Source: Candidatus Aenigmatarchaeota archaeon
Lineage (GTDB): Archaea > Aenigmatarchaeota > Aenigmatarchaeia > GW2011-AR5
Length of the DNA stretch: 59,734 nucleotides
NCBI GenBank assembly: GCA_016184005.1
Contig: JACPDL010000005.1
Span: 1-59,734, forward strand
Direction: 5' to 3'
This document shows positions 26,772 to 45,763 of the stretch, one piece after another. Under the pieces are notes generated by a model, which was not told where the DNA came from, ran no database searches, and saw nothing but the letters and a program-made list of their open reading frames with translations. A program made the translations under genes and the position numbers. The stretch's first letter is position 1, and each line of letters begins with the position of its first letter.

Positions 26772-27076
26772 TGAAATTGCGATTGACTTATTTTACAGAA
26801 CCAGTATATGACACAGAATTCTACAGAAAACATGGGACAAGAATACAGAAAAAATATCCTTCTTTAAGACTCGCAATAGAAGACATCCCGGACGGAATTA
26901 GCTTTATTCTTGAAGGCGGGTGCCGAGATGTCAGGTATGCTGCCGCAATGATCTATGATTTTTGCATGATGCCGGCTGGTATAGATGGTGATAAAGCTGC
27001 TGTTGAGTATGCGTTCAGGCGTAATGAAGCAATTCAAAGAAGTCTGCTACAAACAAGACCCACTGGGATTTGTTAA
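26771..27076 (+). CDS. Hypothetical protein coupled to radA, 101 residues
   Basis: No family recognised. The start overlaps the radA stop by one base, so it is coupled. The segment SFILEGGCRDVRYAAAMIYDFCMMPAGIDG is distinctive, with two cysteines; helices follow to the C-terminus. No signal or membrane segment. It converges with the PRC-barrel gene, overlapping by 4 bp. Confidence 0.6.
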   Translation: MKLRLTYFTEPVYDTEFYRKHGTRIQKKYPSLRLAIEDIPDGISFILEGGCRDVRYAAAMIYDFCMMPAGIDGDKAAVEYAFRRNEAIQRSLLQTRPTGIC

Positions 27077-27339
27077 ACAATTTCCTTTTCGCTGATTATC
27101 ACGAAGTCGCCTACGCTCTTCACAGACGAGAACGGCACAAGCAATCTATTGGCTTCGTCGCGCTCCAGAGTCAGATCAGAAACGTGTCTTGTGGGCTCAA
27201 CCAGAACCAAGCTAAGCAATTCTCCGGATTCAGAAATGAAATTCATGTCGCCTATGACACCAAATTTTCTTCCGGTTTCCTCAGAAACAACTACTTTTCC
27301 CATGATATCTTTCCCGCGGCTTTTCATCATCTTTTTCAC
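27073..27339 (-). CDS. PRC-barrel domain protein, 88 residues
   Basis: Small beta-barrel of the PRC family. KSRGKDIMGKVVVSEETGRKFGVIGDMNF, the opening of the domain, is followed by GELLSLVLVEPTRHV and the typical VPFSSVKSVGDFVIIS near the end. Archaeal single-domain PRC proteins are widespread (one has been linked to division), but the partner is not known here. An alternative start 12 codons downstream is possible. Confidence 0.85.
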   Translation of the reverse strand: MKKMMKSRGKDIMGKVVVSEETGRKFGVIGDMNFISESGELLSLVLVEPTRHVSDLTLERDEANRLLVPFSSVKSVGDFVIISEKEIV

Positions 27340-27464
27340 CTTTCTACATTATACGCTTCGCAGGCTTAAATAATTTGATTCTAATTGAGATTACTTCTTA
27401 TGTGAGGGATAAAACCAGGTTTCACAAACCGTAGGTTAAGGTAGGTTATTGTAACTGCTTCAAA

Positions 27465-28583
27465 TCATGCGCGGACAAGAAGCGATTTTATTTTTGGTGT
27501 TAGCGCGTAAACAAAAGTTTTCTCGCTCTGCTGGCGCTCTACGTAGCCGTCTGCAAGAAGCATTTTCAGGATATTATTAACGCTTCTAACAGCATGCTGG
27601 CGCGATTTGTATTTATCCAGGCTCAGAGAATCAGCAATCTGCCCTGGCGATAAAGAGCGCTGTGAAAGTGTCTCAACAATATCGCGCTGCATCGGCGTGA
27701 ATGTATCTAGGATTTCAAGCGAAACGCGCTCTTCTCTCTGTGGTTCAATATTTTCAATATATTCTTTTTTTATTTCTGTTTCACCTCTTAAAATTGCTTT
27801 TGTTACAAGTTCATCGCAAACCCGCAGGATTTCACGGGGAAAGCCGCCGCTTCTTGCGTGTATGAAATCCAGAAGTTCTTTGGAAAATTCATCGCCTGCA
27901 CCACCAACGTGCTTAATTCTCTTCCTTATCATTTCTTCTGTTTCTTCTTTTGTGAGGGATGCAAGGTCGATCTTTGCCACGATTCTTTTTCTGAATGTTT
28001 CCAGTTTATCCATCAGCCTGTCATCGAAAACAGGCAGGCCGGCCAGCACAAAGGAAATATTAGTTACCTGATCGCCAAGCACGCGCAGCCACTCAAGTGT
28101 CTCTACGCTTGCTTCGTGCACTTCGTCAATCATGATAACAAGATGCCTTCTTTTCAGTTTTTTGTTCAAGAAATCAGGCACCTGATAGATATTTTTAAGG
28201 CCCTGCTTGAACATGCTCATAGGCCATTTTATCTTGAATTTCTCGTTGAAAATCAGTGCAAAATCCTCTGGTTTTGAAGGCGGCTTGCCGATATAGAGGA
28301 TATCGTACGCCTTCCCAGACATCTTTTCCACCCATTTCAACAGGGTTGTTTTCCCGGATCCTGTAGGGCCCGAGACGAAGACAAACTTGTGTTTTTCGAG
28401 CAGCATAAGCAGAAGGCGGTTTATTTGTTCCTGGTAACCTACAAATAGGTAGGGGTATATGTTAAAAGTAAAGGGGTTTTCCTTCCATCTTTTTGTTTCA
28501 AACCACTTTTCAGGGCTTAATTGTTCTAATTTTTGCTGGCCTAAATGATTATTTTTATGTTCTGGCGCATCTTCGCTGTCCAT
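27465..28583 (-). CDS. AAA+ ATPase with C-terminal winged helix, ORC/TniB-like
   Basis: 372 residues. Walker A GPTGSGKTTLLKW near 72, Walker B VIMIDEVHE near 150, sensor 1 SFVLAGLP near 178, sensor 2-type arginine in GGFPREILRVCDEL near 252. A C-terminal winged helix follows (PMQRDIVETLSQRSLSPGQIADSLSLDKYKSRQHAVRSVNNIL). The arrangement resembles Cdc6/Orc and the ExeA/TniB ATPases. It is distinct from the orc1 at 44.5 kb, and sits directly downstream of a repeat-rich, iteron-like region, so it could initiate replication of an integrated element or serve as its regulator or transposition helper. Confidence 0.8.
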   Translation of the reverse strand: MDSEDAPEHKNNHLGQQKLEQLSPEKWFETKRWKENPFTFNIYPYLFVGYQEQINRLLLMLLEKHKFVFVSGPTGSGKTTLLKWVEKMSGKAYDILYIGKPPSKPEDFALIFNEKFKIKWPMSMFKQGLKNIYQVPDFLNKKLKRRHLVIMIDEVHEASVETLEWLRVLGDQVTNISFVLAGLPVFDDRLMDKLETFRKRIVAKIDLASLTKEETEEMIRKRIKHVGGAGDEFSKELLDFIHARSGGFPREILRVCDELVTKAILRGETEIKKEYIENIEPQREERVSLEILDTFTPMQRDIVETLSQRSLSPGQIADSLSLDKYKSRQHAVRSVNNILKMLLADGYVERQQSEKTFVYALTPKIKSLLVRA

Positions 28584-28713
28584 ACTTCATATAACTTCAC
28601 CAACTTTATATGTTTTGTTATCCTCAACTTCACAGGATGTTCACGGGGCTTCAGCAGAAACTGGCTTCAACTTCACGGAAATCATCAATTTTTCTTCATG
28701 AATTCACGTGAAC

Positions 28714-28751
28714 TTCATGAACTTCATGTGAATTCATATGAAGTTCGTGAA
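28714..28751. repeat. Imperfect inverted repeat TTCATGAACTTCAT / ATGAAGTTCGTGAA
   Basis: Two 14-bp arms, one mismatch, around a 10-bp centre that contains a GAATTC. It overlaps the first of the phased direct repeats. Confidence 0.8.
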
Positions 28752-28800
28752 GGTTTTGTGAAGGTTTTGTGAATACCTCGTGAAGGTCTTTGTGAAGGTA
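28747..28800 (+). repeat. Phased GTGAA direct repeats (iteron-like)
   Basis: GTGAAGGTTTT occurs at 28747 and 28758, followed by GTGAATACCTC at 28769, GTGAAGGTCTT at 28780 and GTGAAGGTA at 28792. The first four start exactly 11 bp apart and the last 12 bp further on, placing them on one face of the helix. The AAA+ gene starts 164 bp away on the minus strand. Confidence 0.8.
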
Positions 28801-28891
28801 ATTATGGCTTTTAGTGGGAATAGAACACTTGATTGTGAGTATTGCTATATTCTCTAACTAAGTTTTGTGAGGGTACGAATTTCATGTTCAC

Positions 28892-28963
28892 AGACCTTCA
28901 TGAAATCTTCATGCACCTTCACGGGATCTTCATGAAGATCCCGTGAAGTTCATATGAAGGTCT
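28892..28963. repeat. Nested palindrome with a 32-bp perfect core
   Basis: The core (28917-28948) is a perfect palindrome with arms CTTCACGGGATCTTCA and its complement, and no spacer. Outer arms AGACCTTCAT (28892-28901) and ATGAAGGTCT (28954-28963) add 10 bp. The arms contain the same TTCAC/GTGAAG words as the phased repeats. Confidence 0.85.
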
Positions 28964-29041
28964 AGTAGGTTAAAGATATGTCAGAAACTGGCTTTGGCTG
29001 GCTGCAAAAGTCTGCCGAAGCCTCACATAAGAGCTTCTTGG

Positions 29042-29058
29042 GAGAAGCGAAGCTTCTC
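29042..29058. repeat. Hairpin GAGAAGC-GAA-GCTTCTC
   Basis: Seven perfect pairs and a GAA loop, 5 bp beyond the stop of the minus-strand HTH gene. It could terminate or stabilise that transcript. The first stem of the array at 29508 has almost the same arm. Confidence 0.75.
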
Positions 29059-29063
29059 TGAGA

Positions 29064-29369
29064 TTATTCGCCCGGCTGGTTGATTAATTTGAGGATCTTG
29101 AGAATCTGCTGCACGCTACGGCCTTCTGCAAGCTTCTCAATGACGAAGGGCTTCAGCCGCACCACACGCAACATTGTTTTGCTCTCTCCTGCCAAACTGA
29201 CGTCTTCTATTAATGGTCTCAAAAGGGTATCAATATACTTAGTAACAGTATGATTGTCCATTCCTGTCTCTCTGGCAATCCTCCGAATCCACACACCATC
29301 TTGATTGGTATGCAAAAACTCTATAATTGCAGCTATTTTCTTCTCGTCAAAGCCTTTCTTTCTACCCAT
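29064..29369 (-). CDS. Winged-helix DNA-binding protein, 101 residues
   Basis: Residues 1-85 form a winged helix: GFDEKKIAAIIEFLHTNQDG, the recognition region WIRRIARETGMDNHTVTKYIDTLL, wing MLRVVRLKP, then a C-terminal helix. The reading frame stays open upstream to 29759, but the region before 29369 is the hairpin array and reads as low-quality protein. MGRKKGFDEKK is therefore the better start. It lies next to the AAA+/repeat module on the same strand as the ATPase and may be its partner regulator. Confidence 0.75.
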   Translation of the reverse strand: MGRKKGFDEKKIAAIIEFLHTNQDGVWIRRIARETGMDNHTVTKYIDTLLRPLIEDVSLAGESKTMLRVVRLKPFVIEKLAEGRSVQQILKILKLINQPGE

Positions 29370-29700
29370 ATCAAATAGATTCCCCACCTGGGAATATAAA
29401 GTTATGTGCCGCCAAAATAGCCTAGAAATGCAGAATTTTGATGTCTTTGAAGCTGCATGGCTATCTCTCACGAATCCGGCAAAGACGCCAATCTTGGCCC
29501 AATCTTGGGAGAAGCTTCGCTTCTCCGAGATCTTCAGAGAAACGAAGTTTCTCTGAGATTCCGAAATCCCTTTGGATTTCGAGAATTCCAAAAAGCTAAC
29601 GCTTTTTGAGAATAGTGCCGTATGGCTGGGTTGTGCTGCATTCATTGTGATGAGGATAATCCGCAGCCAGAAACTTAAACGTATCTGACAAAATAATTTC
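29370..29700. other. 331-bp intergenic region with hairpin array
   Basis: Contains an ATAGCC-ATGCAG / CTGCAT-GGCTAT inverted repeat (29417-29464), a direct repeat of CCAATCTTGG near 29490-29507, and the four-hairpin array at 29508-29608. Both strands lack stop codons over parts of it, which creates spurious frames. Confidence 0.65.
29508..29608. repeat. Tandem array of four hairpins, exact 27-bp period
   Basis: Units start at 29508, 29535, 29562 and 29589. Stems: GGAGAAGC/GCTTCTCC (loop TTC), CAGAGAAAC/GTTTCTCTG (loop GAA), CGAAATCC/GGATTTCG (loop CTTT), CAAAAAGC/GCTTTTTG (loop TAAC). Linkers are alike (GAGATCTT, AGATTC, AGAATTC). Each stem is perfect, but the sequences differ between units. 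Confidence 0.9.
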
Positions 29701-30234
29701 ATGCGGTGCTTTCTTGCAGTAGATCTAGATGATGTGTTAAAGGAAAAGGTCGCTGACATTCAGAAGGGCCTTGCTCATTTCGACGCAAAGTTTGTTGAAA
29801 AGGAAAACCTGCACTTCACGCTAAAGTTCCTTGGAGAAGTCAACGAAGAGGTAATTGAAGACGTTAAATCGAAGGCTCGGAAAATAGCATCTAGTTTCTC
29901 GCCATTTAGTATTGACATAAATGGCATGGGCGTGTTTCCAAATTTGAATTACATTCGTGTTGTCTGGGTAGGTGCAAAGCAGCTATACGCGCTGCAGAAA
30001 GCTGTTGATGACACGCTGGCGGATATTTTCGGCCGCGAAGAAAACATAGTTCCGCATTTGACACTAGCAAGGGTTCGTTCGTCCGGGTATAAAGATGCTC
30101 TTAGAAATTTCATAGAAGCGAACAAGGATGCAGACATAGGAACAATGACCGTAAGGGGGATAAAACTGAAGTGTTCTGTCGTGACAAAGAAAGGCCCTGT
30201 ATACGAGGATGTTGAAATTTTCAGCTTGGAGTAG
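29701..30234 (+). CDS. thpR: RNA 2',3'-cyclic phosphodiesterase ThpR (2H family)
   Basis: 2H phosphoesterase once called 2'-5' RNA ligase; opens 2',3'-cyclic phosphates and in vitro joins tRNA halves. 177 residues with the two catalytic HxT motifs, HFTLKFLGE near residue 39 and HLTLARVRS near 119. ATG 29701 has no ribosome-binding site, suggesting a leaderless message. Its activity would be relevant to tRNA splicing in an organism with several intron-containing tRNAs, though that link is inference. Confidence 0.92.
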   Translation: MRCFLAVDLDDVLKEKVADIQKGLAHFDAKFVEKENLHFTLKFLGEVNEEVIEDVKSKARKIASSFSPFSIDINGMGVFPNLNYIRVVWVGAKQLYALQKAVDDTLADIFGREENIVPHLTLARVRSSGYKDALRNFIEANKDADIGTMTVRGIKLKCSVVTKKGPVYEDVEIFSLE

Positions 30235-30241
30235 GTGTAAT

Positions 30242-30616
30242 ATGATTTCGGACAAAAAATTGATCTATATTTCTTTGATAATATCCATGGTAGGGTTTCT
30301 TTCTATGGTTGCTATAACAATGGCTATAGAACCAAGGTACGTATCTGTAAGCCAGATAACTTCAGAAATGACAGGACAGGAGATCACTACACGGGGCATA
30401 ATAGATTCTTATTTTACAAACGAAGGGAACGTATTCATAACATTAAAAAACAGGACGTCGGTCAAGGTCGTTATGTTTTCGCGTGAGGCAGGAAAGCAGC
30501 CTTGGGTTTATGATTTGCGGAAAGGGGATTCCATAGCTGTCGAGGGCAAAGTCCAGATATACAAGAATGAGCTTGAGATTGTGGCCGATAAAATAACAGC
30601 AATAAGCCTCTCTTAA
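30242..30616 (+). CDS. Membrane-anchored OB-fold protein, 124 residues
   Basis: One N-terminal transmembrane segment (about residues 7-28, LIYISLIISMVGFLSMVAITMAI) and an OB-fold domain of about 85 residues outside or beneath the membrane: ITSEMTGQEITTRGIIDSYFTNEGNVFITLKN...SVKVVMFSREAG...YDLRKGDSIAVEGKVQIYKNELEIVADKI. This is the nucleic-acid-binding OB architecture; the ligand is unknown. I chose ATG 30242, 8 bp after the thpR stop, over an upstream in-frame start. Confidence 0.75.
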   Translation: MISDKKLIYISLIISMVGFLSMVAITMAIEPRYVSVSQITSEMTGQEITTRGIIDSYFTNEGNVFITLKNRTSVKVVMFSREAGKQPWVYDLRKGDSIAVEGKVQIYKNELEIVADKITAISLS

Positions 30617-44255: not shown

Positions 44256-44395
44256 TTTTGTAGTATATTTATGAAAATGTTCATGAAAGCAATTAAAATA
44301 TACGACAGACACGGCTGTTTCCTATGGAAATTAATTGCATACGCGAAAAATTAACATTAATTATAACAGTGTTAACAACAACAAACACCCCATAG

Positions 44396-44420
44396 TTCCA
44401 AAGGAAATATAGGGGTGTTT
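44396..44420 (+). promoter_or_regulatory. ORB-like site 2
   Basis: TTCCAAAGGAAATATAGGGG followed by TGTTT, matching the archaeal ORB plan of an inverted TTCCA/TGGAA core followed by an A/G-rich G-string. ACACCCC just upstream (44386-44392) pairs with GGGGTGT, giving a larger inverted repeat. Confidence 0.7.
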
Positions 44421-44500: not shown

Positions 44501-44521
44501 TACTTCTAGGGTGTGTGGTGG

Positions 44522-45763
44522 ATGAGTAAGTTGCTTAATCGTGTTGTTGCTCCGGAAAATATTTTTGCAGGCTATATAGAAAAGGAATCGGTGTTCAAAG
44601 ACAAGCGCGTATTAACGGCGGCTTTCATACCAGAAAAGATCCCACACAGAGAAAACGAGATAAAACAGCTCACAAACATCCTTGCGCCTGTTCTAAAAGG
44701 CTACACGACAAATAACGCCTTCATTTACGGCACAGTAGGAACCGGTAAAACAATATGCTGCAGATATGTGCTTTCGCAGCTCGAGGAAGCAGCGATAGCG
44801 CAGTCGAAGGCCGTTAAGGCACTATACCTGAACTGCAAGATGAAACGGGTTGCAGACACAGAATACAGGCTTGTGGCGCAGCTGCTTAAAGGTCTTGGTG
44901 TAAGCGTGCCCGATACAGGGCTGCCAACAGACGTGCTTTATCACAAACTCTTTGAAAAAATAGACGAGAAACGGCAGCACATCATAATCGCACTGGACGA
45001 AATAGATTCGCTGGTCAGAAAAACAGGAGACGGGTTCCTTTACAGCCTTACACGCATGAACAGCGAACTGAAGAACGCAAGCATAACCACCATTGGCATA
45101 ACAAACGACGTCTTGTTCTTGGAAGGGCTTGATGTCCGCGTCAGGTCTTCTTTGAGCGAAGAGGAGCTCGTGTTCAAGCCGTACGACGCCGTACAGCTGC
45201 AGGACGTACTACAGGAAAGAGTCTTCGAGGGCTTCCGCGAAGACGTGGTTGGTCCAGAAGTCGTAAGCCTCTGCGCAGCCATAGCGGCCCAGGAACACGG
45301 CGACGCAAGAAGAGCACTGGATCTTCTAAGAATAGCAGGAGAAACAGCCGAAAGAAACAACGACAACAAAGTAACCGACTTCCATGTAAATGAGGCGCAG
45401 GACAAAATTGATGTAGAAAGAACCGTCGAGGTTATAAAAGGCCAGCCAAAACAGTCGCAGGCCGTTCTAATAACAATAATAAAACTCATAGAAGCGCAGA
45501 AAAAACAAGGCAGGTGGAGCGACAAAAGACTGCTCACAGGCAGCGTATACGAGTCTTACAGGGAGACGTGCGGGAGAAACAACTTAAAACCGCTCACACA
45601 AAGAAGGGTCGGCGACCTGATCAGCGAACTTGACATGCTGGGCATCATTTCTACCAGGGTCATCTCAAAAGGCAGATATGGAAGAACACGGGAAATATCG
45701 CTCGCGCTTAACGAAACGATAGCCCACAAAGCCGAGAGAACACTGGCAGATAAGTTCTATTAG
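44522..45763 (+). CDS. Orc1/Cdc6 replication initiator
   Basis: Binds ORB sites and loads MCM at the origin. 413 residues. AAA+ core: Walker A GTVGTGKTICC near 70, Walker B IIALDEIDSLV near 157, sensor 1 TIGITNDV near 185, and sensor 2 GDARRALDLL near 260. A winged helix follows (VYESYRETCGRNNLKPLTQRRVGDLISELDMLGIISTRV, about 340-380), which contacts DNA. I chose ATG 44522 over GTG 44513. The origin-like sites upstream support the assignment. Confidence 0.96.
   Translation: MSKLLNRVVAPENIFAGYIEKESVFKDKRVLTAAFIPEKIPHRENEIKQLTNILAPVLKGYTTNNAFIYGTVGTGKTICCRYVLSQLEEAAIAQSKAVKALYLNCKMKRVADTEYRLVAQLLKGLGVSVPDTGLPTDVLYHKLFEKIDEKRQHIIIALDEIDSLVRKTGDGFLYSLTRMNSELKNASITTIGITNDVLFLEGLDVRVRSSLSEEELVFKPYDAVQLQDVLQERVFEGFREDVVGPEVVSLCAAIAAQEHGDARRALDLLRIAGETAERNNDNKVTDFHVNEAQDKIDVERTVEVIKGQPKQSQAVLITIIKLIEAQKKQGRWSDKRLLTGSVYESYRETCGRNNLKPLTQRRVGDLISELDMLGIISTRVISKGRYGRTREISLALNETIAHKAERTLADKFY

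Follow-up and report, generated by a model that had tools for sequence, protein, structure and literature searches.

The DNA analysed here (the window, 59,734 nucleotides) is a single contig within a 919-kb archaeal genome. An array of short repeated words lies between the gene of a small helix-turn-helix protein (HTH102) and the start of an AAA+ ATPase gene, with a PRC-barrel gene beyond the ATPase (Table 1), and the gene order HTH102-array-ATPase-PRC-barrel is common among relatives. Specifically, in a set of 32 loci, which counts one genome twice (L011 and L040), HTH102 precedes the array and ATPase in 24, sharing their gene's strand, and the PRC-barrel gene follows the ATPase, again on its strand, in 28. 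The HTH gene that the initial annotation had marked at 29064 is genuine, but its start is most plausibly 29372, giving 102 aa, as homologues align over this stretch; the protein shows a weak match to an IS21-transposase-type HTH (E 0.0014 for the long frame and 0.00086 for the 102-aa form). Genes for RPA, RadA, Hjc, Orc1, a PolD-small-subunit-like protein and PolB are found within 22 kb, together with metabolic neighbours. The array thus sits in a core region of replication and repair genes and not in an element. Between the HTH gene and a LigT gene, 29508–29608 contains a series of short hairpins, perfect or nearly so, with stems of 8–10 bp and loops of 2–4 bases. In addition, the word CTCACATAAG or its complement has five copies in the window (21954, 22069, 23054, 27397 and 29022), one of which lies 3' of the ATPase; TTATGTGAG is likewise recurrent after the ATPase in several relatives.

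Table 1. Positions in the window of the array, its parts, the adjoining genes and the orc1 region
Feature	Positions	Strand	Remarks
PRC-barrel protein, 88 aa	27073..27339	-	downstream of ATPase
AAA+ ATPase (AAA_22), 372 aa	27465..28583	-	single copy, core gene
C-terminal winged helix of ATPase, ~residues 290-361	27501..27716	-	predicted from alignment A1, model and structural matches
Whole array	28586..28958	.	31 TTCAY/RTGAA half-sites, 15 exact TTCAC/GTGAA
ATPase-proximal arm	28586..28796	.	holds the reported 11-bp run and the promoter
TATA-like box of ATPase, CATATAA	28606..28612	-	presumed, by eye from the sequence
Near-palindrome, 36/40 bases	28698..28737	.	centred on TTCACGTGAA
Reported run	28747..28796	+	GTGAA starts 28747, 28758, 28769, 28780, 28792
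Inter-arm spacer, ~85 bp	28797..28880	.	two CTCACA-type words
Distal arm	28881..28958	.	
Perfect 32-bp palindrome, 32/32	28917..28948	.	
Small HTH protein HTH102, 102 aa	29064..29372	-	far side of array from ATPase
ORB-like origin signals	44319..44420	+	TTCCTATGGAA, TTCCAAAGGAA then AGGGGTG; upstream of orc1
orc1/cdc6	44513..45763	+	TIGR02928, 405 bits

The initial annotation had described four GTGAA words at 11-bp steps with a fifth 12 bp on, flanked by a near-palindrome and a palindrome, and we found all of these words and both flanking elements where it had placed them. The run is genuine, but it is only the part of the array that was seen, the whole consisting of two arms around a spacer. 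The CATATAA word, which we take to be a TATA-like box, is located about 25 bases 5' of the ATPase ATG and has half-sites on either side. The two CTCACA-type words of the spacer are conserved in family loci (alignment A3, 10 loci). In dinucleotide shuffles of the whole window, a GTGAA run at 11-bp steps of even three words appeared in 0 of 200, and the densest 400 bp holds 15 TTCAC/GTGAA words, as compared with a maximum of 8 in 200 such shuffles. Consistently, all 13 matches of the triple pattern TTCAYN{4,6}TTCAYN{4,6}TTCAY in the 919-kb genome fall at 28698–28958, with none outside the array. No comparable cluster was found within 200 kb around the array (G050, G004, G014 and G005), and Rfam gave no structured-RNA match in 27000–30600.

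Next, the conservation of the ATPase and of the array was compared across genomes. The ATPase is 97% identical to its homologue in a Candidatus Aenigmatarchaeota bin, the closest relative with a name, and was found in 52 of 59 relatives, including 25/25 of those at least 90% complete, in 111 of 156 genomes of the phylum and in 22 of the 236 other archaeal genomes searched. All of the first 30 loci carry 9–35 TTCAC/GTGAA words in at most 700 bp upstream of the ATPase, while the shuffle means for these regions are 1.1–3.4 and the largest single shuffle is 9; the ATPase gene itself holds 0–11 words in roughly 1 kb, and 0–5 were counted downstream of it. Homologous loci without repeats, which according to the initial annotation would refute its reading, were looked for in 105 upstream regions of the phylum, three of which were too short for testing; seven ATPase genomes were left out of this set (five partial genes and two genes at a contig start). 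The repeats are present in most, 92 of 102 regions lying above all 100 shuffles for TTCAC/GTGAA words, and no excess was seen in the other ten (G037, G049, G051, G074, G114, G126, G127, G137, G143 and G144). Similarly, at least three triple-pattern matches occur in 74 of the 111 genomes with the ATPase, as against 2 of the 45 without it (Fisher 7e-14, relatedness ignored), and the latter two are incomplete assemblies; a reversed control pattern gave a mean of 0.27 per genome among ATPase genomes. Outside the phylum, for which 20 upstream regions were fetched from the 22 ATPase genomes, 10/14 regions from closer relatives and 0/6 from distant ones lie above the shuffles. Arrays are present without an adjoining HTH102 (L035–L039 among others), accompany the ATPase even where orc1 sits on another contig, and in one genome with two ATPase copies (G108) an own array is located beside each. 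On these comparisons, the array's constant partner is the ATPase, since arrays follow it through all three situations.

Several relatives show variations in and around the array. One genome (G007) has a second array near G007:C1 9207–9420, a small secondary phased cluster about 1–2 kb from the ATPase. Three genomes of one genus (G037, G049 and G077) contain small extra phased clusters, in which 200 bp hold 3–6 exact words; these lie about 1 kb beyond the ATPase and about 4 kb beyond orc1. The most expanded array (L229, genome G151) has 48 exact words within 1000 bp in a regular alternating order. At L235 (G167) and L036 (G052), half-sites appear to extend into the first part of the LigT gene next door, so that two constraints would act on one stretch of DNA. 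Outside the phylum, an ATPase homologue at G376:C26:7105-8175 contains one in-frame TAA. Additionally, a different recurring word, TTCAC(C/A)TATAGTTCAC, is scattered over the contigs of several relatives, e.g. in seven places in G005, as is a second scattered word type, TTCACGAACGTTTCAC; both are possibly sites of another regulator.

The arrangement of the words was described by pair distances collected from 29 loci. For TTCAC pairs on one strand the distances peak at 11, 22, 31–33, 41–43 and 52 bp, for TTCAC..GTGAA pairs at 5, 15, 25–26, 35 and 46, and for GTGAA..TTCAC pairs at 6, 17, 28 and 38–39. The best period of same-strand TTCAY pairs is 10.45 bp (R 0.71) for distances under 60 bp; for 60–120 bp it is 10.55 bp (R 0.59), and the phasing fades past 180 bp. 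With one genome per family (22 families), the same-strand period is 10.4 bp with R 0.69, as compared with a maximum R of 0.175 over 500 random placements, and the two opposite-strand classes give R 0.57 and 0.70 in the same register. The arrangement of the array differs greatly among families, while the words are retained. Judged from these spacings, it is the helical face that is conserved and not the exact sequence, because the phasing holds across families though the arrangement differs; the retention of words without their arrangement would imply selection, not mere descent. The phylum-wide conservation and the phasing together back the initial reading of iteron-like sites on one face tied to the adjacent Orc/TniB-like ATPase.

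In alignment A1, 28 homologues have Walker A/B motifs in common, together with a nearly invariant stretch in the winged helix. No other nearly invariant part of the protein is as long, and the C-terminal winged helix includes YKSRQHAVRSVNNILKRL, which is highly conserved. Among the curated profiles of NCBIfam, TIGR03015 (ExeA) comes closest, with E 4.8e-26, well below the cut-off; the ATPase locus is not among the nine matches of TIGR02928 at E<=0.1 in its own genome, and a PDB sequence search with the ATPase alignment gave generic P-loop matches only. The AlphaFold model (three sequences) is of moderate quality, with pLDDT 66, pTM 0.44 and unreliable domain packing. In Foldseek its first match is A. 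pernix ORC2 (E 6.5e-9), with a TM-score of 0.26 that is low because the domain packing of the model is uncertain. Specifically, VIA-align matches the modelled C-terminal domain to ArsR-type winged helices (Z 12.5), unlike a ribbon-helix-helix, and to 4rs8, the centromere-binding protein of pNOB8 (Z 10.7, rmsd 2.6 over 71 residues), the ATPase domain to MuB and TnsC (Z ~11), and the whole chain to Cdc6 1fnn (Z 12.0, rmsd 8.0). The model thus suggests an initiator/MuB-like AAA+ protein with a DNA-reading tail, a fold being no proof of function.

The relation of the array to orc1/cdc6 bears on the origin that the initial annotation had proposed. In its own genome the array is located 16 kb from orc1/cdc6, and TIGR02928 exceeds its cut-off only at 44591–45703. 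Of 30 genomes, 20 carry the mini-ORB core within the 500 bases preceding orc1 (36 matches, against 0.3 in shuffles), as compared with 2/102 array regions. The array is therefore, as far as such signals tell, not the ordinary Orc1/ORB origin, though it might be a second or accessory one. Of 42 same-contig pairs of ATPase and orc1, 40 lie within 60 kb (median 15.5 kb), while the two distant pairs are 293 and 378 kb apart; the array is on the orc1-facing side in 35 pairs, and in 41 the transcription of orc1 is directed away from the ATPase. Among the 156 genomes, with canonical orc1 counted at E<=1e-80 and two weaker paralogue-like matches omitted (G082 and G088), 96 have both genes, 15 only the ATPase, 14 only orc1 and 31 neither. 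The joint occurrence has p 3e-11, which overstates the number of events, the genomes being related and often incomplete. Families f26 and f27 have neither the ATPase nor a strong canonical Orc1 match.

Based on these data, we tentatively favour a reading in which the array is a binding scaffold for the ATPase winged helix that carries the promoter of the ATPase gene and serves as an origin-proximal centromere-like site. The sites, their phasing, their conservation, the linkage to the ATPase and the proximity to the origin were all computed here; ATPase binding, filament formation, autoregulation and partition are what we infer from them. Each TTCAC-type half-site would be read by the C-terminal winged helix of the ATPase, a role we assign because the ATPase is the array's constant partner. 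Half-sites in either orientation, about 10.5 bp apart or offset from this register by fixed amounts, would bring many subunits onto one face of the DNA, where they may link up as a filament or a wrapped complex whose ATP-controlled assembly the AAA+ domains would provide. Since the promoter lies inside the array, occupancy of the array would also regulate the ATPase gene. The complex would most likely be a partition or anchoring site near the Orc1 origin, normally not at it, with the PRC-barrel protein as a candidate partner. A centromere-like role is preferred because there is one array per chromosome, in proximity to the origin, resembling the split iteron centromeres and the pNOB8 AspA site. 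ParB_N is absent from the own genome and was detected in 10/156 genomes, and ParA-type (AAA_31) matches below 1e-30 occur in 7/156, the best match in the own genome being 1.7e-14. By this profile count, the partition role appears vacant in most genomes, and ParABS offers no counterpart here. Some observations run against the centromere-like reading, namely the ten upstream regions without word excess and the two ATPase genes far from orc1.

The comparison with known systems shows both likenesses and differences. The type II ParR/parC and type III TubR/tubC centromeres of plasmids, as outlined in PMC5016525, comprise iterons upstream of the operon of their binder, about one helical turn apart and in some plasmids split into arms around a spacer, and the ParR/TubR-type binder also represses (PMC5016525). 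The present array shares this trait of the ParMRC/TubZRC type, i.e. upstream iterons on one helical face in arms around a spacer, with the ATPase as the putative binder. It differs in being chromosomal and phylum-wide with half-sites in both orientations, and its candidate binder, an AAA+ ATPase whose model shows a winged helix, would be neither a ribbon-helix-helix protein nor TubR. In the AspA-ParBA system of the archaeal plasmid pNOB8, AspA is described as a winged-helix binder with its site upstream of its own gene, spreading over >200 bp as a helix (PMC5120986), and the modelled C-terminal domain of the ATPase resembles its entry 4rs8. For AspA there is a single 23-bp palindrome, and ParB and ParA are separate proteins, whereas here there are many phased half-sites and the ATPase is on the same chain as the predicted winged helix. 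For SegAB of Sulfolobales, likewise on an archaeal chromosome, sites are reported to precede the segregation genes (PMC12284271), and upstream chromosomal sites beside genes are thus shared. However, SegB is a ribbon-helix-helix protein with a TCTAGA-based palindrome at some 40–50 chromosome-wide sites in the same account (PMC12284271), as compared with one dense array of TTCAC/GTGAA words here. With Orc1/Cdc6-ORB the locus has in common an AAA+ protein with a C-terminal winged helix and sites beside the gene, but the ATPase falls outside the Orc1 family by TIGR02928, the array lacks mini-ORB, and the true Orc1 with its ORBs is 16 kb off. Unlike ExeA and the MuB/TniB/TnsC-type AAA+ proteins, to which the profile and the modelled ATPase-domain fold point, the ATPase is a core chromosomal gene, and no transposase or secretion genes were seen among the neighbouring genes examined.

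Other explanations were weighed against the centromere-like reading. The first takes the ATPase as a second initiator or initiation regulator acting with Orc1, and the array as a further origin, accessory or second, or as a site that titrates the initiator. We judge this unlikely as it stands, yet initiation control comes close behind the centromere-like role, because the ATPase and Orc1 are present or absent jointly. The co-occurrence fits an initiation role at least as well, although it may reflect few events, the genomes being related. The initiator-like fold indicated by the ORC2 match, the iteron-like order of the sites and a family (f11) with the ATPase and orc1 merely 0.3–1.9 kb apart point the same way, whereas the array usually lies 5–58 kb from orc1, the mini-ORB signals are at orc1 and not at the array, and the spacer, by eye, is not notably AT-rich. 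GC skew was too weak to locate any origin in G050 and in most of the computed G004 samples.

In a somewhat less probable explanation, the array would serve the ATPase gene only as an autoregulatory operator, one that is strong and cooperative. The array could fit such an operator too, with a TATA-like box inside it and one array per genome at the ATPase promoter, and genus g26 has further small intergenic clusters elsewhere, as in a small regulon. The archaeal Orc1-2 is a precedent, described in PMC9738581 as a non-initiator AAA+/winged-helix regulator bound to its own promoter. However, about 30 half-sites over about 370 bp, and more in some relatives, phased over >100 bp, are far beyond an ordinary operator, and in some relatives the sites appear to extend into the neighbouring LigT coding region. 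The strong operator suggested by the initial annotation is thus likely correct in part, since the promoter is inside the array, but the length, the reach into coding sequence and the phasing suggest more.

IS21/Mu-type systems pair an IS21-transposase-type HTH protein with an AAA+ ATPase. The weak HTH match of HTH102 and its same-strand position beside the array in most loci raise the possibility that HTH102 binds the array and recruits the ATPase as a ParA- or MuB-like partner; HTH102 could be a candidate binder in those genomes that have it, but we consider the exchange of binder improbable, as arrays persist where no HTH102 is next door. The iteron origin of an integrated element proposed by the initial annotation, for which the directly repeated sites at helical spacing are an expected trait, is not supported, as judged by the presence of the ATPase in every relative at least 90% complete, by the replication and metabolic neighbours, and by a virus-contig scan with the ATPase that gave just four weak, partial P-loop matches. 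In PHROGs and PADLOC, likewise, the only matches were to P-loop, transposition or HTH proteins, and these were weak or partial.

Returning to the centromere-like reading, we consider it possible, with somewhat less confidence than in that reading as a whole, that the locus represents a new kind of chromosomal partition, in which a one-protein motor-plus-adaptor (AAA+ and winged helix) acts on a single, origin-proximal phased centromere array, the PRC-barrel partner perhaps linking it to division. Such a partition system might, with similar reserve, be kept across most of the Aenigmatarchaeota examined and some other archaeal lineages. Should the ATPase not only bind DNA but also move it, an adaptor and a motor that are separate in known partition systems would be united in one protein. 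Chromosome segregation or initiation control in these tiny, mostly uncultured archaea is apparently undescribed in the literature searched: among titles and abstract openings on this clade and DPANN, with subscription journals thinly covered, we found no origin or partition array of Aenigmatarchaeota. With the single conserved phased array and its cognate ATPase, in-vitro tests have a defined stretch of DNA and a defined protein to work on, and in metagenome bins the array can mark the region of the origin. The families without both the ATPase and canonical Orc1 (f26 and f27) offer a natural comparison; in f26, weaker Orc1-like matches (E ~1e-81) were observed in two genomes.
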